Both the position numbers and the translations under genes were made by a program. The notes beneath the pieces were generated by a model. The model was given only the letters and a program-made list of their open reading frames with translations, did no database searches and was not told the origin of the DNA. Below, one piece after another: positions 3-10,776 of a DNA stretch of 64,000 nucleotides (positions are counted from its first letter, which is position 1; every line of letters begins with the position of its first letter). Origin of the DNA: an uncultured Spirochaetales bacterium (GTDB lineage: Bacteria > Spirochaetota > Spirochaetia > Sphaerochaetales > Sphaerochaetaceae); assembly GCA_949300325.1 (NCBI GenBank), contig CASGDQ010000017.1, positions 1-64,000 of the forward strand. The letters are read 5' to 3'.

Positions 3-839
3 TCCATTTCCGCCACTACGACATTCTATGTCGTAAGTGTGCTTGAGGAAGGAATAACCTCATCATGGCAGAGTAATAATACCAGGCTTCCTGTAACAAT
101 CGGAGATACGCTGAAAATCGATGCTGAAGTAACTCCGGCAAACGCAACGCTCAAAGCCTTGTCGTTCTCTTCCGCCAACCCTGAAATCGCCACTGTCGAC
201 CAGGATGGAAATCTTACTGTAAAAGGATATGGGGATGTGACAATCACCGTGAAATCCATTTCAGGCAAGACTATTGATATTCCATTCAGTTTCTATCATC
301 AGGCATTCACGGACAAGGATGAAATCATTAATGGAGTTAATCTCATCCTTAATAGATATCTTTCCGAAGCAAATGCCTCAAAATCGATTGGCGGAGACTG
401 GTGGCAAGGAGATACTAATAAAACATATACGACAGATAATGTAACCATCACATGTTCAACAGGACTGTGGACGACTCCATCTGCCGGGTCATTCTCAATT
501 ACAAGGTATAAAGACGACCTGGCCATCAGCCAAAACTTAGTCCCAGTATATATTTCAACAACAACTGAAGGCGGGCTTTCAATTAAAGCCGAAGCTGGTA
601 GTTATTTAGGAGATACTAAACTTGAGACAGTCGGACCAGGGACAATAAAAGTGGAATTGCCCGACAACCAGGGAGATGTGGAAATAGAATACAATGAGAT
701 AAATCTGCTGAGTTCTGATCGTAATGACAATTACACGATGAAATTCGAAAAAGATCTTCCGCACAATGGAATCACAGCAGGAGAATCATATACGATTACC
801 GATTTAAGCAAAATCACTAGAATCGCTGTAAATTTGTAG
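3..839 (+). CDS. Ig-like (BIG2-type) surface protein, 5' end outside window
   Basis: The reading frame is open from base 3 without a stop, so the GTG at 39 is not the real start and the N-terminus lies upstream of the window. Residues encoded by about 90-300 form a bacterial Ig-like module: a beta-rich stretch containing the typical 'NPEIATVDQDGNLTVKGYG' segment (a value that holds true, then 'TVKG.G..TITV'). Such domains occur in extracellular or outer-membrane adhesins and carbohydrate-binding proteins. The remaining ~180 residues are polar and beta-like with no motif I recognise. No membrane anchor or catalytic motif is visible in the part present. The call of an exported Ig-like protein is an inference from the domain; its partner or ligand is unknown. 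Confidence 0.6.
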   Translation, partial: SISATTTFYVVSVLEEGITSSWQSNNTRLPVTIGDTLKIDAEVTPANATLKALSFSSANPEIATVDQDGNLTVKGYGDVTITVKSISGKTIDIPFSFYHQAFTDKDEIINGVNLILNRYLSEANASKSIGGDWWQGDTNKTYTTDNVTITCSTGLWTTPSAGSFSITRYKDDLAISQNLVPVYISTTTEGGLSIKAEAGSYLGDTKLETVGPGTIKVELPDNQGDVEIEYNEINLLSSDRNDNYTMKFEKDLPHNGITAGESYTITDLSKITRIAVNL

Positions 840-1756: not shown

Positions 1757-2209
1757 TTAATTAAAATTATGTATTTCCAAATTTTTCAATATATTAAGAG
1801 ATATATCATGACGGCCTCCTTCATATTGATAATTTAACCAATTATGTATTATTTCGAACGCCATAAAATCACCAATACAACGTCCACCCAAACACAAAAC
1901 ATTGGAATTATTATGTTTACTTGTCATCATTCCTTGATATGGCGTATCGCACAAAGCTGCACGTATACCTTTATACTTATTGGCAACAATAGACATACCA
2001 ATACCTGTTGAACAAATTAGAATACCTCGATCGACCTTATTAGATAATATTGCATTACAAACTTTCTCTGCATAAATAGGATATCTGACGATATCGTTAG
2101 AATAGCACCCATAATCTATTATCTCTACATTCTCATGCTCTCTTAAATAAGGGATAATTTTCTGTTTCAACTCATATCCACCATGATCATTTGCAATTGC
2201 AATTCTCAT
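1757..2209 (-). CDS. rpiB: RpiB/LacAB-family sugar-phosphate isomerase
   Basis: A 150-residue protein of the usual length for ribose-5-phosphate isomerase B. It begins with the family signature 'IANDHGGYELK' (His after Asp in the active site), has 'CSTGIGMSIVANK' around residues 66-78 (the Cys of this loop is the catalytic base in the family; the second position is Ser where Gly is common) and 'NNSNVLCLGGR' near residue 100. Known members interconvert ribose-5-P/ribulose-5-P, allose-6-P/allulose-6-P or galactose-6-P/tagatose-6-P, and sequence alone does not separate these. It is the last gene of the minus-strand ABC operon and overlaps the dehydrogenase stop by 4 bp (ATGA), implying translational coupling. 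It probably feeds the product of the upstream enzymes into the pentose phosphate pathway. Confidence 0.85.
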   Translation of the reverse strand: MRIAIANDHGGYELKQKIIPYLREHENVEIIDYGCYSNDIVRYPIYAEKVCNAILSNKVDRGILICSTGIGMSIVANKYKGIRAALCDTPYQGMMTSKHNNSNVLCLGGRCIGDFMAFEIIHNWLNYQYEGGRHDISLNILKNLEIHNFN

Positions 2210-3252
2210 AAATTACCTCCTTCCAAAAAAATCTTTTTTCCGTCTGATAAAAGTGCGGCTTCATAAACTTGCATTATTTCATAAGCAAATTCTAGTGATC
2301 CATTTTTAGGTTTAATTTTATTTAATACACAATTACAAAAATACATGGCTTCAGAATAAAATCCTTGTATGAAAAGAGCCTTATTATCCAAAGTTGCAAC
2401 ACAGTTTCGAGGAGACCACTCATGTACCCCATAATTAAATCCTTCTGATATATAATTTGTTGTATTGTTATAGTCAAAAGGTATTCCACAATCCAATCTT
2501 ACAATAGCATTATCAATTACAGCTCGCCATCCTTCACCTGTAAAACTATAGTATTCAAAATCTGGTTTAGGACCTGAGCATAAAGAAAGCGTTCCAATAC
2601 ATCCAGAAGAAAAACCTAAAATAACAACACCATATCCATCCCTATCACATACAGTCTGCACATAATCAACATGTCCTCCAACACGCAACATCAAAGATAA
2701 TGGATGAACACCATTCCTCAACCAATTTGGAGTTTCTTTGTTTTCCAAAATTTCTCTTCCATTCTTCTCAATCGTCATGGGATACATTGCTGTTATTGTT
2801 TTCAAATGCCCAAAATTTGGATTTTTACATATCTCTACAATTTTATCACAAGACGGCATAAAAGCCTTTTTCAGACCAACAACAACAATATTTTCTTTAG
2901 AGTGCTCCATCATCATCAGAACCTCTGAAGCTCTGACTGCAATTGGTTTTTCCACCCATACATCTACTTTTGCATCCAAAGCCTCACAAACAAGCCTCGG
3001 ATGTAATGAAGGGCCAACCGAAATGAATACGGCATCCAACACCTCGTTGATATACATTTCTTTAGTGTCACAATATGAGTGACACCCATATTGTTTAGCA
3101 GTTAGATTGGCAATAGTAAAATTAATGTCACATACTGCAACAATATCAACTGGCAAGTAATTCATAAGAGGAAGTATATTCCTATAACAATGACTTCCTA
3201 ATCCTATAATTCCAACTTTTATTTTTCTATTAAATTCCCGTTGATAACTCAT
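2206..3252 (-). CDS. Gfo/Idh/MocA-family dehydrogenase
   Basis: A 348-residue protein with an N-terminal Rossmann fold: 'KVGIIGLGSHCYRN' (GxGxxx nucleotide loop) after a 10-residue lead, 'VDIVAVCDIN', and the family signature 'VWVEKPIA' near residue 97, whose Glu-Lys-Pro binds NAD(P) and substrate. The C-terminal alpha/beta domain contains 'NGVHPLSLML' where the family His sits. These enzymes oxidise or epimerise a hydroxyl of sugars, inositols or sugar acids. The start has a GGAG-like site, lies 1 bp after the ADP-ribosylglycohydrolase stop and is in the same operon. Substrate cannot be assigned; the context suggests an intermediate of the imported sugar. Confidence 0.8.
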   Translation of the reverse strand: MSYQREFNRKIKVGIIGLGSHCYRNILPLMNYLPVDIVAVCDINFTIANLTAKQYGCHSYCDTKEMYINEVLDAVFISVGPSLHPRLVCEALDAKVDVWVEKPIAVRASEVLMMMEHSKENIVVVGLKKAFMPSCDKIVEICKNPNFGHLKTITAMYPMTIEKNGREILENKETPNWLRNGVHPLSLMLRVGGHVDYVQTVCDRDGYGVVILGFSSGCIGTLSLCSGPKPDFEYYSFTGEGWRAVIDNAIVRLDCGIPFDYNNTTNYISEGFNYGVHEWSPRNCVATLDNKALFIQGFYSEAMYFCNCVLNKIKPKNGSLEFAYEIMQVYEAALLSDGKKIFLEGGNL

Positions 3253-3253
3253 T

Positions 3254-4294
3254 TTATTTCTCCAAAAGTTTTATACCTTCCATACAATCTGAAAATATTT
3301 TCCATCTCTTTCTTGCTATATCCGCCAATTTAATAGCTAAAAGTTTCTGGTCAACAACTTTCACAGAAGCCTTATAACTTTCTTTACTTACCTCTTGGTC
3401 ATAACCATAATTTGATTCAATTTTTCTAACCCAAGACAAAGGGAAAGCATCTATTCCGGCATATGCGCCAACTATACTTCCCACCATTGCACCAATTGTA
3501 TCAGCATCTCGACCAAAATTTGCTGCATACGTAATGGCTTTCTCGGGATCACCTTCCGATAACAGAAAAATAGCCAATGCACAAGGAATTGTTTCTCGTG
3601 AATCACTAACAATATCTCTTAAATAACTTGAATAATATGATTCTCTGAAAGTTTCATAGGACATCTCACTTTTTTTCAGAAGGTCCATTGCTCCATCTAT
3701 TACATTTTTGATTTCCATTGAAGAAATTGGATGAAGAAATTTTAGTGATAATTCAACAATTTCTTCAACAGACAACCTACTATCCATAGCCAAAGCAACA
3801 GCTGTACCAATTATACATGCTCCATCTCGACAAAATGTTGTATCTCCTGCATGCATTAATCCAGCAACATCATATATTTGCAAACTAGCCAAGTAAGGGT
3901 TACATGCATTTATCAATCCAAGAGGAGCGATACTCATGGCGCTTGAAGAAGACTGCATATTTCCAAGGCCTGCATAAACAGGTAATGTTAGTTTTGACTC
4001 AACCTTATGAAACATATTTTTTACAGGAATAAAAAAAAGTGGATAATATTCCCTATGTTGAAGAAAAGCTTCTGCCCATTCATCCGCTGTTATAAAACCA
4101 TCATGTTTAATAATAGCATCACATAATATTTGCTTTATTGCAGAATCATCAGTGCCGGCTCCATCGAAATCATCCACCCATCCAAATTCTCTTTCTATAC
4201 TCTGATAGCTCATATCTTCACAAGGAGCACCCATTGCATCACCTATGATTCCTCCAACAAGAGAGCCATAAATCTTCTTCTCGAACAAGTCCAT
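3254..4294 (-). CDS. ADP-ribosylglycohydrolase-family enzyme
   Basis: A 346-residue all-alpha protein of the ARH/DraG family. The N-terminal 'GSLVGGIIGDAMGAP' is the family opening. 'GTDDSAI' at about residue 48 supplies the Thr-Asp-Asp metal ligands, and 'GRDADTIGAMVGSIVGAYAG' near residue 262 supplies the second Asp-x-Asp-Thr set, so the binuclear Mg site looks complete. Known relatives remove ADP-ribose from proteins or hydrolyse O-acetyl-ADP-ribose and related ribosides. Here it sits inside a sugar ABC-transport operon between a TIM-barrel isomerase (9 bp gap) and a dehydrogenase (1 bp gap), so a catabolic role in cleaving a ribosyl bond of an imported compound is more likely than regulation of nitrogenase-type targets. 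That role is inference. Confidence 0.85.
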   Translation of the reverse strand: MDLFEKKIYGSLVGGIIGDAMGAPCEDMSYQSIEREFGWVDDFDGAGTDDSAIKQILCDAIIKHDGFITADEWAEAFLQHREYYPLFFIPVKNMFHKVESKLTLPVYAGLGNMQSSSSAMSIAPLGLINACNPYLASLQIYDVAGLMHAGDTTFCRDGACIIGTAVALAMDSRLSVEEIVELSLKFLHPISSMEIKNVIDGAMDLLKKSEMSYETFRESYYSSYLRDIVSDSRETIPCALAIFLLSEGDPEKAITYAANFGRDADTIGAMVGSIVGAYAGIDAFPLSWVRKIESNYGYDQEVSKESYKASVKVVDQKLLAIKLADIARKRWKIFSDCMEGIKLLEK

Positions 4295-4303
4295 ATAAAC
4301 CTC

Positions 4304-5071
4304 CTAAAAATTAAATTCTTTGAGCAAAGAATCAATAAAACATCTATTTAATGTCGAATCATAAAATGTTGTCTCTATTGAAATTCGCCCATCATATGAA
4401 ATCTCTTTTAAACATGAAAAAAACGGCCTGTATGTATCTTCCTCTTCATTCTGTGGGCATCGAAGATTATTGCTATTGCTTATATGTACATGCTTAACCA
4501 TAGAACCTGCTGTAACAATAGAATTCACCAAATCTCCTTGGGATCTCATTTGCTGAAAGTCTGTCATCACCCTTATGTTCGAACGATCTATTTTATTAGC
4601 CAAAGATATGCACTCAATCAATGTATTGAGAATATTTGTAGATTGTTTACGAATTGGTTCTATGCAAACCATTATATTTGTATTCCACAACAGATCACTG
4701 ATAAAAATAAGCCATTCTTTGAATTGTTCTATAGCCTGCTCTTTTGGGAACCCTTTAGGACAATATCTTGATGGTCCACTCCCGACCGTAACAGTCTCTA
4801 CTCCTAGTTTTTTTATGCGAGAAACTGCCTTGATACAATATTGCTCAATAGCAGAAATATCAAGATCTGGCCCTGTTATTTTCAAGTCATTTGGAAAAAA
4901 GAAATTACATGCTTTACAAGCAATACCTATATTTACAAGATGCTTTCTAACATTATCAAAATCATCTGGCTTCAACAATGTAAACCAATTACAAGGCATT
5001 TCAATATAATCAAATCCTTTGTTTTTAATAAAAGCGGCATCTTTAATTTTTGCACAAACACCTAAATCCAT
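4304..5071 (-). CDS. Xylose-isomerase-like TIM-barrel sugar isomerase/epimerase
   Basis: A 255-residue single-domain protein of the AP-endonuclease-2/IolE/hydroxypyruvate-isomerase superfamily. The metal-binding residues expected of the barrel are visible: Glu in 'VCIEPIRK', Asp in 'VMTDFQQM', His in 'KHVHISNSN' and Glu in 'RISIETTF'. Members isomerise or epimerise keto-sugars and sugar acids with a divalent metal. It begins 7 bp after the MalG-type permease stop and is part of the operon. The exact reaction cannot be read from the sequence; with the following dehydrogenase and RpiB-like protein it would fit a multistep conversion of an unusual sugar to a pentose phosphate. Confidence 0.75.
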   Translation of the reverse strand: MDLGVCAKIKDAAFIKNKGFDYIEMPCNWFTLLKPDDFDNVRKHLVNIGIACKACNFFFPNDLKITGPDLDISAIEQYCIKAVSRIKKLGVETVTVGSGPSRYCPKGFPKEQAIEQFKEWLIFISDLLWNTNIMVCIEPIRKQSTNILNTLIECISLANKIDRSNIRVMTDFQQMRSQGDLVNSIVTAGSMVKHVHISNSNNLRCPQNEEEDTYRPFFSCLKEISYDGRISIETTFYDSTLNRCFIDSLLKEFNF

Positions 5072-5078
5072 ACCAATC

Positions 5079-5930
5079 TCATCCTTTCAAACCTGAAGTT
5101 GCAATTCCATCTACAAAATAGTCTTGGGCGAAAAAGAATAACAATGTGCTAGGAATAATTGATAACAACGACATCGCCAGAACCTTGTTCCACTCTATAG
5201 CGCCAGATAGATCAAGAGACATCTTAAGTGCTAAAGAAATTGGATATTTTACAACACTATTGATATAAATAAGAACATTCTGGAAATCATTCCAAGTCCA
5301 TACAAACTGAAAAATCGCAGCAGAAAACAAAGAAGCTTTGCATAATGGGAGCAAAATTTTACTAAACGTTGTAAAAGTTGAACAACCATCAAGATATGCA
5401 GCTTCATCAAGTTCTTTTGGTAAAGCTCTCATAAATTGAACCATCATGAAAACAAAAAAAGGATAAGCTGCTAAAATGGCTTGTGCATAAAATGGAATAT
5501 ATGAATCCAACCAATGAAATTTGTTAAATAACAGATACCTTGGTATAATAATTACAGAATTCGGCAACAACAAAGTTGCAATGACAATTGAAAAAAGCAC
5601 TTTCTTACCATAAAAATCAAATCGAGCAAATCCATAAGCAACGAGAACACTAGAAAATAATGTAAATAATACTGTAGGTATAACCAATAATAAAGTATTA
5701 ATATAAAACGTCGTATATGTTATTTGTCCATTTCCTTTCCAACCATTTCTAAAGGCATCAAAAGTGACTTCATTGGGTAAAAGCTTAATAGACCCAAACA
5801 ACTCACTGTTAGTCTTGAAAGCTCCTGCAGCTAGCCAAAGTATAGGATAAATCATTATAAATCCAACAAATATTAAAAATATATATCGTAATATAATATT
5901 CTGTTTTTTTGATAAATGTATTCTTTTCAT
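5079..5930 (-). CDS. Carbohydrate ABC transporter permease, MalG type
   Basis: About 283 residues with six hydrophobic segments and the cytoplasmic EAA loop of inner-membrane permeases ('LDEAAYLDGC', then 'LPLCKAS') at roughly residue 190. It carries the N-terminal pattern of the CUT1 subfamily second permease ('YPILWLAAGAFK'). I start it at the ATG at 5930, preceded by GAAGG at 8 nt and 1 bp after the MalF-type stop; a longer form from 5951 would overlap the upstream gene and lacks a ribosome site. Pairs with the MalF-type protein to form the channel for the sugar delivered by the binding protein at 6890. No ATPase gene is in the operon, so a shared MsmK/UgpC-like ATPase encoded elsewhere is expected. 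Confidence 0.9.
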   Translation of the reverse strand: MKRIHLSKKQNIILRYIFLIFVGFIMIYPILWLAAGAFKTNSELFGSIKLLPNEVTFDAFRNGWKGNGQITYTTFYINTLLLVIPTVLFTLFSSVLVAYGFARFDFYGKKVLFSIVIATLLLPNSVIIIPRYLLFNKFHWLDSYIPFYAQAILAAYPFFVFMMVQFMRALPKELDEAAYLDGCSTFTTFSKILLPLCKASLFSAAIFQFVWTWNDFQNVLIYINSVVKYPISLALKMSLDLSGAIEWNKVLAMSLLSIIPSTLLFFFAQDYFVDGIATSGLKG

Positions 5931-5931
5931 A

Positions 5932-6828
5932 TTAATTACCTTCATCCTCATAAAAAACCCATTTTTGAGATGATTTAAATAAAAGAACAGTAAAAAACAT
6001 AATCACTATAAACAAGATCCAAGACAAAGCACTTGCATACCCGATTTTAAAATATCGAAAAGCTTCATTATATAATTTCATTCCATATAAATATGTACCT
6101 TGCAAAGGTCCCCCATTAGTAATAACAAAAGCTGATGTAAATTCTTGAAATGCGTTAATCATCTGCATAACAATATTGAAAAAAACCATTGGAGTTAACA
6201 TTGGAACCGTTATGAGCAAAAAAACCTTAATAGCTCCGGCACCATCAACTTTTGCGGCATCATACAATTCCGATGGTATTTGTTTAAGCCCTGCAAGAAA
6301 AATAACCATTGAAGAACCAAATTGCCAAATAGACAATAAACATATAGATAAAAGTGCAGTTCCAGGTTTTCCCAACCAAGGAATGGAAGGAATACCTATT
6401 TTCTCAAAAAAACCGTTAATTATACCATCAGAGAGAAATAACATACGCCAAACAATGGAAATCGCCACACTGCTACCAAAAATTGATGGAATATAATATA
6501 TAGTACGGAACAATCCAACCCATTTCAGCTTTTGATTAAGTAACACAGCAATCAACAAGGCAAAAATTAATTTACATGGAACAGAAATTACAACGAACAA
6601 TATTGTGACTTTGAGAGAATTCCAAAATTCAGAATCATTTGTAAAAATATCCACATAATTTTTTAATCCGACATAATCAGGTCGTCCACCCAAATTATAA
6701 TTTGTGAACGAATAAAAAAAAGATGCAAGAAATGGATATAATTGAAGTATTAAAAAACCAGCAATCCAAGGCAAAACATAGAGTAACCCGATATTCTGTC
6801 GGTTTGAAAAAATTGATTTTATTTTCAT
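5932..6828 (-). CDS. Carbohydrate ABC transporter permease, MalF/UgpA type
   Basis: 298 residues, six predicted membrane helices, starting with a Lys-rich cytoplasmic end and a first helix 'LLYVLPWIAGFLILQLYPF', typical of CUT1 permeases. The EAA loop is 'ELYDAAKVDGAGAIKVF' near residue 200. It forms the heterodimeric inner-membrane channel with the MalG-type gene that follows after 1 bp. A hairpin in the 61-bp gap upstream (6853-6877) probably sets its expression below that of the binding protein. Family assignment is secure; substrate is unknown. Confidence 0.9.
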   Translation of the reverse strand: MKIKSIFSNRQNIGLLYVLPWIAGFLILQLYPFLASFFYSFTNYNLGGRPDYVGLKNYVDIFTNDSEFWNSLKVTILFVVISVPCKLIFALLIAVLLNQKLKWVGLFRTIYYIPSIFGSSVAISIVWRMLFLSDGIINGFFEKIGIPSIPWLGKPGTALLSICLLSIWQFGSSMVIFLAGLKQIPSELYDAAKVDGAGAIKVFLLITVPMLTPMVFFNIVMQMINAFQEFTSAFVITNGGPLQGTYLYGMKLYNEAFRYFKIGYASALSWILFIVIMFFTVLLFKSSQKWVFYEDEGN

Positions 6829-6852
6829 GATAGCCCCAAAAATAAAGGATTT

Positions 6853-6877
6853 TATTGCCGAGAAAATCCCGGCAATA
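6853..6877 (-). promoter_or_regulatory. Intercistronic hairpin between binding protein and permeases
   Basis: The inverted repeat TATTGCCG/CGGCAATA with a 9-nt loop lies in the gap after the binding-protein stop. Only a weak T-run follows on the minus strand. Hairpins in this place usually protect the binding-protein mRNA or partly terminate transcription, giving excess binding protein over permease. Confidence 0.5.
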
Positions 6878-6889
6878 TTTTATTCTTCA

Positions 6890-8194
6890 TTACTTATTTT
6901 TCTCTAATTCGGCCAGTCTTGACTTCCAACCATTCATTAAAGTATCTGCTGCCTGTTCTGGAGTCTCCTTACCAAAGACTAGATTCTCATATTCATTATA
7001 AAGCAAATCCAAGCACACAACATCTTGAGAAAGAACACTATCCACTACACCAGGATTCTTCAATGCATTATCCGTTGCCTTTACAATCATTGGATCCATT
7101 AGATTTTGCTCATTACAAAGATTTCTTGCAGATTCAACAGCAGGAACAGATCTCACATCTTTTAATATCTGTTGTGCTTCTGGATCATTATAAAAGAAAT
7201 CCAAAAAACTCGCACAAGCTTCTTTATACTTTGAAGAGTCATTGATACAAATCAATTGAGAAGGCCTATTAAACATTCCTGTATTCTTAGCTCCACTTTC
7301 CATAATCGGCAGAACCGCAACATCAAGATTTTTCAGATTACCTTTCAAATCAGCATATTTACTAGTCCAGTTTAATGATACAGCAGCATTTCCGTTTATC
7401 CAAAGAGGATTCTGCTCACTCTTTTCCTTATATGTAAGGCTATCTTCCGGTGGTTGCATTATACCAAGTTCATAACACTGCATTATATATGAATAAACCT
7501 GTACTAATTCTTCTTTTGAAAAACCCAATTTATATACATCATCCAAAGTAGTAGGATTACCTGACAGCTGACTCAAATAAGCTCTTTGTATATAATAAGT
7601 TGCAGTATACTGATCAACATTCAAAAAATAACGATTGGGATTCTGCTGATGTACTTTTGGCCCTTCAACAAGAATATCCTCCCATGTCCACTGATCACGC
7701 CACTCAATTCCCGCATCCTCAAGCACGTCTCTATTGATTATCATCATGGGGGAATTGATACCTGTTGGCAATGCATATATAATTCCATCAATAGTACCAT
7801 AATCAATAATAAATTGACGATCGAACCCAGAAATATCCAAATTAGCAAAATTACTTAAATCCGCAAAACAATGAAATTTATTCTGTGCATCTGTCCACCA
7901 TGCATCAACTTGAATAATATCAGGTGCATTACCTCCAGCAAGCTGAGTAAATAATTTTTGCTGATATCCTTCTATACCGCCATATTCAGCAATTATTTTC
8001 ACTCCGGGATTTCTTTTTTCATATAACTCTATTGCTTTTAAAGTCGCTTCATGCCTGCTATCTCCTCCCCACCACATGAAACGCAACGTAATTTCATTGT
8101 TTTTTTCTGATGCTTTTTCTCCTCCTCCCTGGGCAAACAAAATAAAAGGCATCAACAAAAGCAAAATCATAACAATAAAAAAACACTTTTTCAT
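6890..8194 (-). CDS. Extracellular sugar-binding protein (family 1) of ABC transporter
   Basis: 434 residues. The first ~22 form a signal peptide (two Lys, then a long Leu/Ile core ending 'FILFAQGGGEK'); there is no lipobox Cys, so cleavage by signal peptidase I after 'LFA' is expected. The mature protein has the family-1 pattern: 'ITLRFMWWGGDSRHEATL' at the start, 'GGNAPDIIQVDAWW' near residue 90, and 'PLWINGNAAVSLNW' later. It captures the sugar in the periplasm and hands it to the two permeases. A GGAGG site lies 6 nt before the ATG. Expression is probably under the YesM/YesN pair immediately upstream (135 bp gap, where the operon promoter should lie). Ligand not predictable. Confidence 0.9.
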   Translation of the reverse strand: MKKCFFIVMILLLLMPFILFAQGGGEKASEKNNEITLRFMWWGGDSRHEATLKAIELYEKRNPGVKIIAEYGGIEGYQQKLFTQLAGGNAPDIIQVDAWWTDAQNKFHCFADLSNFANLDISGFDRQFIIDYGTIDGIIYALPTGINSPMMIINRDVLEDAGIEWRDQWTWEDILVEGPKVHQQNPNRYFLNVDQYTATYYIQRAYLSQLSGNPTTLDDVYKLGFSKEELVQVYSYIMQCYELGIMQPPEDSLTYKEKSEQNPLWINGNAAVSLNWTSKYADLKGNLKNLDVAVLPIMESGAKNTGMFNRPSQLICINDSSKYKEACASFLDFFYNDPEAQQILKDVRSVPAVESARNLCNEQNLMDPMIVKATDNALKNPGVVDSVLSQDVVCLDLLYNEYENLVFGKETPEQAADTLMNGWKSRLAELEKNK

Positions 8195-8329
8195 TCTTTC
8201 CTCCTTTTCGACTTTATCTAGTCATCGAAAGAATAAAACTGTTATAAGATAATTCCATCACCACAAATCATTAGAATTAGTGCTTTTTTTTTCTGATGAG
8301 AAACAAAATTGCAGATTGGTTGCATTATT

Positions 8330-10039
8330 TTAGATGAAAGGGATGGAAATAATTATTTTTGTACCACACCCCTTTGTGCTTTGAATATTGAAAACCAAAT
8401 TACCTCCATAAAATAGTTTTAGTCTTTTATATGTATTCACCAAACCTATATGAGTGCTACTATCAGAAAAATCCATCTCATTAATTATTTTCTCTCTTAC
8501 CTCATTGTCCATTCCACATCCATTGTCCTCAACAATTATTTCAACAACACTCTCTTTTCTAATAAAAGTAATCCAAATCATGCCTTTTCCTGCAATTTCC
8601 TTGAATCCATGGGAAATACAATTCTCCAAGAGAGGCTGCAAAATTAATTTTAATGTCTTTTGCTCAAGAGTTGATTCATCAATATCCCATAACACATTAA
8701 ACTTACCAGGAAATCTATAGGTCTGAATCAATAAATAATTTTTTGCATAATTTATTTCATCCTTCAAAGGGACCGTATCAAGAGGATTTGCCAAAGAATA
8801 CTCCAAAATGCTAGAAAGACTTTCTATCATATTACTAGCCTTATTCTTACCGCGACCAAGTCTTATTGATTCCCAATATATCGCATTCAATGTATTATAA
8901 AGAAAGTGAGGATTAATCTGATACTGAAGAGCACGGAATTCCATACTTGACATATGGTCCTGCAAATATTTCTTCTCTAAAAAAACCTGCAACACATTTC
9001 TTATGATAGCTTCATAAGAATTTTCTTTAATTGTCCAGTCGGTTGCCTCATCACCATTATTTAATATATCAACAATATCATTAAGTAATTTGTTATTCTT
9101 CTTTGTAATATGCATTGTGATACAAATAACAACAAAAATAGCAACAACCATAATAATCGTAATCACAATTCTTACAATTCTAGGTATTACCATGGAATAG
9201 GACTCTGATAGAAAAAGAAAATATCGCCATCCATTAAAATCTGAATTTTTATTAATAACAAAATACTTATTATTAGCTATTTCGATACGAGATACATCAT
9301 CAGATAGATTTTGCAAATCTATTGTCTTCAACTTCTCTACTTCTGGGTAAATAATACTACCTGTTTCATCTGTAATAAGAATAAAATAACCTTCTGACTT
9401 AGGAAAAAGAGAGCTAATCAACTCATAGAAATAACTATAATTGACATTAAACACTATTCCTCCTGGGTTTTCGTTACGTCTAAATATACTGATTACTTTT
9501 ATTCCTCCTGGATCAGAAAAAGCTTGTTTGATTTTCCTAATCTCATAATAACTATCCCATTTTTCCATTTTACCAACATATTCAAGCCAATCAGAATCCC
9601 AATAATCATCAGAATAGACGATCCCATTCAAAGAAGAGATAAATTTCCCATAAGAATTATCACCCCACATATAAATAGAATGAAAATATCCTCGTGAATT
9701 AATAAATGAATTTATAGTCGACTGCATCATATTGAAAGTTCTAATTTCATCCAAGGAATATGACTGATTCTCAAGAATTGTATTAATAAAATTTACGATT
9801 GAAGGATTTGAATGAAAATTCATTAAAAACCCATCTATATCAAGAAATGGAGAATCCATATTCATCTTTAACAATTCTGCATCTGTTTTCAAACTTTCCT
9901 CTACTTGTTTGGTTGTAACGTTGTCAATAATTACAATCAATCCTACTCCCATGATGACAAGAGGAATAATCAAAGGGATGACAAAAGCCAAAAGATTGTG
10001 AATAAAAAAATGTTTTTTTATAACCTTTTCGTTATTCAT
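8330..10039 (-). CDS. Sensor histidine kinase, YesM/LytS type
   Basis: About 569 residues. Two membrane helices (near residues 20-45 and 290-315) bracket an extracytoplasmic sensor of ~240 residues. A HAMP-like linker leads to the HisKA_5 H-box 'INPHFLYNTLNAIYWES' and an ATPase domain with 'PLLENCISHGFKE' (N-box) and 'VEDNGCGMDNEV' (G1). I start at 10039, where the ATG overlaps the response-regulator stop as ATGA and GGAG stands 9 nt upstream; the ATG at 10054 has no ribosome site. It should sense an extracytoplasmic sugar signal and phosphorylate the YesN-type regulator in the same transcript. Confidence 0.9.
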   Translation of the reverse strand: MNNEKVIKKHFFIHNLLAFVIPLIIPLVIMGVGLIVIIDNVTTKQVEESLKTDAELLKMNMDSPFLDIDGFLMNFHSNPSIVNFINTILENQSYSLDEIRTFNMMQSTINSFINSRGYFHSIYMWGDNSYGKFISSLNGIVYSDDYWDSDWLEYVGKMEKWDSYYEIRKIKQAFSDPGGIKVISIFRRNENPGGIVFNVNYSYFYELISSLFPKSEGYFILITDETGSIIYPEVEKLKTIDLQNLSDDVSRIEIANNKYFVINKNSDFNGWRYFLFLSESYSMVIPRIVRIVITIIMVVAIFVVICITMHITKKNNKLLNDIVDILNNGDEATDWTIKENSYEAIIRNVLQVFLEKKYLQDHMSSMEFRALQYQINPHFLYNTLNAIYWESIRLGRGKNKASNMIESLSSILEYSLANPLDTVPLKDEINYAKNYLLIQTYRFPGKFNVLWDIDESTLEQKTLKLILQPLLENCISHGFKEIAGKGMIWITFIRKESVVEIIVEDNGCGMDNEVREKIINEMDFSDSSTHIGLVNTYKRLKLFYGGNLVFNIQSTKGCGTKIIISIPFI

Positions 10040-10776
10040 TCTCCGTGTCTCCATGAATTAGGAGAACATCCATAATATGCTGAAAAAGCTCTGGAAAAAG
10101 CTTTAGGCGATGAATAGCCCACCAAAGATGAAATTTCACTAATTTTCATACCTTCTTTCAAATAAATAGAAGCTTTTTTCATTTTCTCAGCAGTGAGGAA
10201 ATCAGAGAAATTCATTCCAGTATGTTTTTTGAAGTATTGAGAGAAATAAGAAGGATTCATATTCATCAATGAAGCTCCATATTCAAGGGTTGCAGAAGCA
10301 ACAGAAGATAAAATATTTTTTATAGCTTTTTGTAACCCTACTGGATACGCACTGATATCAAAAACATCTGTGTCTTCAGCAGAAACAGTCTCTGCATCTA
10401 ATTCTTTTCTTATATGATCAAAAACACAAACTATTTCATCATATTTTGTAGGTTTGAGTATATAATCCCTTACTCCATATCTTAGAGCATTTTTCACATA
10501 CGAAAAATCTCGATATCCTGAAATAAAAACCATTTTTATTTTTAAATTATTTTCATAAACATATTTTGCAACAGCAATTCCATCCATCAAAGGCATTTTA
10601 ATATCACAAAGAATGACATCAACTAATCTAGAATGAATAAAATCAATCACTTCCCTACCATTACAAACCTGTCCAATTACCTCAAAACCAATGTCAGCCC
10701 AAGGAAAAAAACAACAAAGAGACGACCTCGCTTCAACCTCATCATCTGCGACTAACAACTGATAGATCCTTTTCAT
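10036..10776 (-). CDS. YesN-type response regulator with AraC HTH
   Basis: 246 residues. The receiver has the acidic pair in 'LLVADDEVEA', the phospho-acceptor Asp in 'VILCDIKMPLMDG' (about residue 56), Ser in 'VFISGYRDF' and Lys in 'YILKPTKY', so it looks functional. The C-terminal ~100 residues hold an AraC-type double helix-turn-helix ('ISEISSLVGYSSPKAFSRAF'). The linker is short compared with the ~500-residue Bacillus YesN. Together with the kinase it should activate the sugar operon downstream. A perfect TATAAT ends 7 nt before the ATG and no ribosome site is present, suggesting a leaderless mRNA. Confidence 0.9.
   Translation of the reverse strand: MKRIYQLLVADDEVEARSSLCCFFPWADIGFEVIGQVCNGREVIDFIHSRLVDVILCDIKMPLMDGIAVAKYVYENNLKIKMVFISGYRDFSYVKNALRYGVRDYILKPTKYDEIVCVFDHIRKELDAETVSAEDTDVFDISAYPVGLQKAIKNILSSVASATLEYGASLMNMNPSYFSQYFKKHTGMNFSDFLTAEKMKKASIYLKEGMKISEISSLVGYSSPKAFSRAFSAYYGCSPNSWRHGE

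Follow-up and report, generated by a model that had tools for sequence, protein, structure and literature searches.

Which compound is taken up and broken down by an operon that joins a CUT1-type ABC importer to an ADP-ribosylglycohydrolase-fold (ARH) hydrolase and an RpiB-like isomerase? ARH-family genes commonly adjoin sugar transporters, and we found no such operon with an assigned substrate in the literature, E. coli yegTUV included. The stretch analyzed here (the window, 64,000 nucleotides; contig C17:1-64000) belongs to a 2.32-Mb draft genome, and between positions 10776 and 1757 it carries nine minus-strand genes with predicted sensing, import, and sugar-enzyme functions. By analogy with related operons, our preferred reading is that this is a horizontally acquired operon that serves to import and degrade an extracellular glycoside with a pentosyl, most likely a ribosyl, group; we give this reading a probability of about 0.4. 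The operon is a compact and testable set, as its solute-binding protein (SBP) can reveal the substrate and two of its enzyme subfamilies can be assayed.

Locus Organization and Gene Content

The nine genes are listed in Table 1. An earlier note on this DNA, made from the sequence alone, had delimited these nine open reading frames (ORFs) and assigned their families, and the profile matches bear out both. It had also put the gaps from the SBP gene onward at 61 bp or less, which agrees with the ORF coordinates: the gap between the SBP and PermF genes is 61 nt, PermF and PermG overlap by 20 nt, the PermG-TIM, TIM-ARH, and ARH-Gfo gaps are 7, 9, and 1 nt, respectively, and Gfo and RpiB overlap by 4 nt. 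Upstream, the response regulator and histidine kinase genes overlap by 19 nt, and 135 nt separate the kinase gene from the SBP gene.

Table 1. Genes of the operon, from the highest to the lowest window coordinate, with profile matches and protein identity to the G038 relative (locus L033).
Predicted product	Position	Strand	Profile match	Identity to G038 (%)
YesN-type response regulator with AraC-type DNA-binding domain	10036..10776	-	Response_reg 1.1e-19, HTH_18 1.1e-19	
YesM-type membrane sensor histidine kinase	8330..10054	-	His_kinase PF06580 5.9e-25, HATPase_c 1.2e-11	
CUT1-type extracellular solute-binding lipoprotein (SBP)	6890..8194	-	SBP_bac_8 3.1e-29	65
ABC permease, UgpA/MalF type (PermF)	5932..6828	-	BPD_transp_1 6.8e-13	75
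ABC permease, UgpE/MalG type (PermG)	5079..5951	-	BPD_transp_1 7.6e-16	76
Xylose-isomerase-like TIM barrel, possible sugar isomerase/epimerase (TIM)	4304..5071	-	AP_endonuc_2 5.3e-21	47
ADP-ribosylglycohydrolase-fold hydrolase, GNMxSSSSAM subfamily (ARH)	3254..4294	-	PF03747 3e-40	66
Gfo/Idh/MocA-type dehydrogenase (Gfo)	2206..3252	-	PF01408 1e-16	58
RpiB-like isomerase with D42R, G67S, and R137S (E. coli numbering)	1757..2209	-	PF02502 6.2e-52	72

No sugar kinase is encoded in the nine-gene block, as had been pointed out before, and eight PfkB matches lie elsewhere in the genome. An ABC ATPase is likewise absent from the block; the SBP and two BPD permeases, combined with seven UgpC/MsmK-like ATPases encoded elsewhere in the genome, make up the parts of a CUT1 importer. 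Promoter-like and terminator-like sites at the locus were found at the level of shuffled sequence. Downstream of the operon, at the start of the contig, lies a gene for a Big_2-domain protein (window positions 39-839).

Base Composition and Conservation

The GC content of the operon is 32.8% overall and 30–36% in each of its nine genes, compared to 47.4 ± 1.5% (minimum 44.1%) in 9-kb pieces of the remaining window. The edge is sharp: at about 11 kb, the GC fraction rises from 0.33 to 0.50 between neighboring 500-bp steps. Low GC content and a sharp edge together suggest that the operon was probably acquired as a unit, and a recent transfer of the whole operon, together with its regulators, from an AT-rich donor is most likely. 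Neither a tRNA nor convincing flanking repeats were found at the ends of the acquired block.

A scan of genome contigs for the operon returned one relative, the Spirochaetaceae metagenome assembly G038 (contig CALXKZ010000080.1), which represents a second species of the genus. The gene order SBP-PermF-PermG-TIM-ARH-Gfo-RpiB is intact there, with protein identities of 47–76%; the G038 contig ends inside the SBP gene, and the comparison covers these seven genes. The earlier note would have given up its reading if the ARH gene were not conserved with the rest in related operons, and in this one other species it is. At 44% GC, the G038 copy has either had a history separate from that of the copy described here or been ameliorated. 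Among 139 genomes of the family, a close match to the Gfo protein occurs in one other genome, again G038, and no further ARH match below 1e-25 was found in 393 sampled genomes of the phylum (a sample without G038). Judging from these searches, the close ARH form appears to be rare outside this operon and its G038 counterpart.

The ARH-Family Hydrolase

The ARH protein matches PF03747 with 139.2 bits (cut-off 26.2) over profile positions 1-285 of 287, and the metal motifs reported as complete in the earlier note are all in place (GDAMGAPCE, TDDS, and GRDADT). The G038 and Microvirga proteins fall in the same clade (support 100/99), and its nearest homolog beyond the spirochaetes is a Microvirga plasmid protein with 40.6% identity and the same SSSSAM loop. 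The clade is marked by the signature GNM[QP]SSSSAM[SA] in place of the NGxAMR of YegU-type and several other homologs; the loop reads GNMQSSSSAMS in the operon protein, compared to TNG[SA]AMR in YegU and in the spirochaete loci L042, L046, L052, and L110. Further marks of the clade are H-x5-FC[RQ]DGA and DSRET[VI]P. We take the NGxAMR loop to be in contact with the ADP part of the substrate in ADP-ribose hydrolases (DraG, ARH1/3). If it is, a changed specificity would follow for the clade, and these proteins may act on something other than a riboside.

The literature yielded no biochemistry for the GNMxSSSSAM subfamily and nothing directly relevant on ARH proteins in sugar operons. An AlphaFold2 model of the protein, built from a two-sequence alignment, had a mean pLDDT of 35.5 and was discarded rather than taken into fold searches.

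Proposed Pathway and Substrate Context

The gene content and order, their conservation, the residue changes, and the base composition are observations; for the preferred reading, a pentosyl glycoside, we infer the catalytic steps, their order, and the substrate as follows. The YesMN-type sensor would respond to the compound itself or to a signal related to it, and expression of the transporter would be switched on by the AraC-type regulator. The compound would be imported by the CUT1 SBP and permeases, with power from an MsmK-type ATPase that is encoded elsewhere and shared. In the cytoplasm, the metal-dependent ARH-fold enzyme would cleave the glycosidic bond, and the Gfo/Idh dehydrogenase, the TIM-barrel protein, and the specialized RpiB-like isomerase would convert the released sugar, any phosphorylation being left to a kinase encoded elsewhere.

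The strongest hint to the substrate comes from another genome, G061, in which a member of the same RpiB clade is found in a CUT1 operon with two IU nucleoside hydrolases. The contexts of other ARH proteins, which include a ribokinase (Agrobacterium), a PfkB kinase (with the second ARH of this genome), nucleoside enzymes (L042, L052, and L046), and yegTUV, also point to ribosyl compounds. As a counterpoint, it is not a ribokinase that accompanies the Microvirga ARH but a dehydrogenase together with an enzyme of the enolase superfamily. Across the family, ARH and nucleoside hydrolase genes are close to each other in 6 genomes vs. 2.3 expected (P ~0.03), a modest excess from cases that are not independent and are in part one operon repeated. 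No nucleoside hydrolase was detected in the two genomes that bear the operon, both of which are incomplete drafts. The riboside substrate proposed earlier therefore stands in part: the RpiB-clade and ARH-CUT1 contexts favor it, while the closest relatives of the SBP, the lost NGxAMR loop, and the altered RpiB-like protein do not.

Transporter and Partner Enzymes

Among solved structures, the SBP is nearest to YesO (5z6b, 3.5e-47) and the 2uvg-j sugar-binding protein (3.7e-42), both of which we take to be pectin-oligosaccharide binders, and CUT1 transporters typically carry oligosaccharides. The TIM-barrel protein matches D-psicose 3-epimerase (2hk0, 2.2e-11) and scores 65.7 of 300 bits against the curated PsicseEpim model, which is under its cut-off. 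Pairwise alignment to 2hk0 shows that E, D, H, and E are kept, presumably the Glu-Asp-His-Glu metal ligands of ketose 3-epimerases, and that Gln stands in place of the His that follows the Asp and contacts the substrate. The same protein is weakly similar to 3-keto-D-glucoside 4-epimerase (6wn6), and the Gfo protein to the DgpA and glycoside 3-dehydrogenase families, in each case below curated cut-offs. Gfo is also 39% identical to a Mesorhizobium plasmid protein; its plasmid relatives lie beside Tm-1-like and PEP-hydrolase genes or an unrelated TIM barrel and give no hint to the substrate.

Much of this would suit a different cargo, namely a plant-derived oligosaccharide or a hexosyl or uronosyl glycoside, with the Gfo/Idh and TIM-barrel proteins acting as a 3-keto-glycoside pair and ARH serving not as a ribosyl hydrolase but as a glycosidase with a new specificity. 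Such a cargo would fit the SBP relatives and the altered ARH loop as well. The 3-keto enzyme matches on which the proposed pair depends are weak, however, and nucleoside hydrolases accompany the RpiB clade in its other context, as ribokinase or PfkB and nucleoside enzymes accompany ARH proteins elsewhere. We regard it as a possible, if somewhat doubtful, explanation.

The RpiB-Like Isomerase

The RpiB-like protein scores above the curated rpiB equivalog cut-off (171.4 vs. 138.65 bits) and groups with the G038 and G061 proteins in one clade (support 98/99). D42R, G67S, and R137S are common to all three, and the clade keeps C66 (catalytic Cys66), H99 (ring-opening His99), R133, and R110 or K110. 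Ribose-5-phosphate isomerase B also has Asp42 and a pair of arginines, 133 and 137, that anchor the phosphate; of these, R133 alone is kept, with R42 and S137 in 3/3 members. In the Leishmania enzyme, the D45N variant (Asp45 being the equivalent of Asp42) is inactive, and Arg141, the equivalent of Arg137, anchors the phosphate (PMC4783025). Given D42R and R137S, the annotation as an ordinary ribose-5-phosphate isomerase probably does not hold for the clade; since the cut-off was passed without residues important for that activity, automatic annotation is probably misleading for these proteins. The earlier note had relied on the general statement that RpiB acts on phosphates of the ribose or allose type; this may not apply to a protein with one of its two phosphate anchors gone and a charge beside the active site reversed. 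A second RpiB in the same genome, encoded at C49:83042-83452, keeps D42, R133, and R137, and the pentose phosphate pathway therefore does not depend on the operon copy.

Loss of the anion site is not the only way to read these changes. LacAB has Arg39 where RpiB has Asp42, and this arginine binds the phosphate of a hexose phosphate (PMC3755991), which suggests that the anion site of the clade may have been rebuilt. One form that this could take, which we consider rather unlikely, is a route that needs no kinase and handles an unusual glycoside, pentosyl or other: ARH would be a cytoplasmic glycosidase without ADP-ribose recognition, and the RpiB-derived isomerase, with its rebuilt anion site, would act on a sugar that bears no phosphate or has a different charge and is supplied by the dehydrogenase and the TIM-barrel enzyme. 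Less probable still is that the compound arrives as a phosphorylated or acidic pentosyl compound and that R42 takes over anion binding in the manner of LacB Arg39, in which case no kinase would be needed in the operon. The shared substitutions, the retained residues, and the LacAB precedent are compatible with this proposal. Against it, there is no sign of an anionic substrate, kinases encoded elsewhere could act, and R42 adjoins Y43, whereas LacB Arg39 lies three residues before Tyr42, so that the equivalence is structural at best.

Counted by eye, RpiB and ARH genes co-occur in five genomes of the family in three unrelated arrangements, which is not clearly above chance. Two loci (L047:5165-9846 and L104:1764-6278) have an ARH gene followed by three TRAP-transporter-like genes (by sequence appearance) and an RpiB homolog, whose active-site residues are altered to Y42, F43, D100, and V137.

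Catabolic or Regulatory Role of ARH

The earlier note had taken ARH to be the cleaving step rather than a regulator of protein modification. This is the better reading, given that ARH travels with the operon, that ARH-CUT1 operons elsewhere carry ribokinase or nucleoside enzymes, and that a member of the RpiB clade lies beside two nucleoside hydrolases. The ARH family does include DraG and ARH3, and a regulatory de-ADP-ribosylase might sit by chance in a sugar operon. We consider this very improbable: curated models for DraG and Tri1 gave partial matches far under their cut-offs (46.9 of 337 and 30.1 of 490 bits, respectively), the NGxAMR loop is lost, the gene lies within a series of catabolic genes whose order is conserved, and no ADP-ribosyltransferase was seen in the nine-gene block. 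That the genes are a loose assembly without one common pathway is the least credible reading of all, since the intergenic gaps are near zero and the order is identical in G038 at 47–76% identity, even though the partners of TIM, Gfo, ARH, and RpiB vary among the wider families.

Comparison with Known Systems

The yegTUV-yegW genes of Enterobacterales encode a nucleoside-type permease, the ARH-family YegU, a PfkB kinase, and a GntR regulator; the function of E. coli yegTUV is still unestablished (PMC10819704). What the two systems have in common is a small operon, sugar- or nucleoside-like, that combines a transporter with an enzyme of the ARH family. They differ in that yegTUV has an MFS permease and a PfkB kinase, in contrast to the CUT1 ABC, Gfo, TIM, and RpiB proteins found here, and YegU keeps TNGAAMR where the operon protein has SSSSAMS. 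Rhizobial LacI-CUT1-ARH-ARH-UgpC-ribokinase operons likewise combine a CUT1 transporter with ARH. Unlike the present operon, they include their own ATPase, a ribokinase (Agrobacterium), and ARH proteins of other clades, and they lack Gfo, TIM, and RpiB. On a Microvirga ossetica plasmid the order is AraC-SBP-permease-permease-UgpC-dehydrogenase-ARH-enolase superfamily, with 6-phosphogluconate-dehydrogenase-like and enolase-superfamily enzymes instead of Gfo, TIM, and RpiB.

Spirochaetes provide further examples. A recurrent ARH-CUT1-TIM-SIS-YjbQ-like-nucleoside hydrolase-deoxyribosyltransferase operon (L042:7334-18288, L052:594-9899, and L110:4305-13763) shares ARH, a CUT1 ABC transporter, and a TIM-barrel protein with the operon, and at L042 also an RpiB homolog. 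It differs in its separate ARH clade, which keeps NG[SA]AMR, in its explicit nucleoside enzymes, and in its unrelated TIM subfamily. The ARH-CUT1 operon at L046 has a deoxyribosyltransferase, a TIM-barrel protein, and PNP alongside. In the genome studied here, an ARH-family protein and a PfkB kinase are also encoded with a CUT1 ABC transporter in another operon (L090:3409-8787; G000:C49).

The G061 operon (L100:7046-13856; G061:C5) consists of a CUT1 ABC transporter, an enolase-superfamily enzyme, the RpiB-clade member, and the two IU nucleoside hydrolases. Its RpiB is 63% identical to the one described here and has D42R, G67S, and R137S, and both operons use a CUT1 transporter. G061 differs in having nucleoside hydrolases where the present operon has ARH, such that they would appear to fill the hydrolase slot, and in lacking Gfo and TIM; the permeases are 28–35% identical. 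Compared to RpiB and LacAB themselves, the operon isomerase shares the fold, catalytic Cys66, and ring-opening His99, and differs by D42R and R137S. The operon is best filed as an uncommon gene set within a familiar kind of system, the known ARH-containing operons for sugar or riboside uptake.
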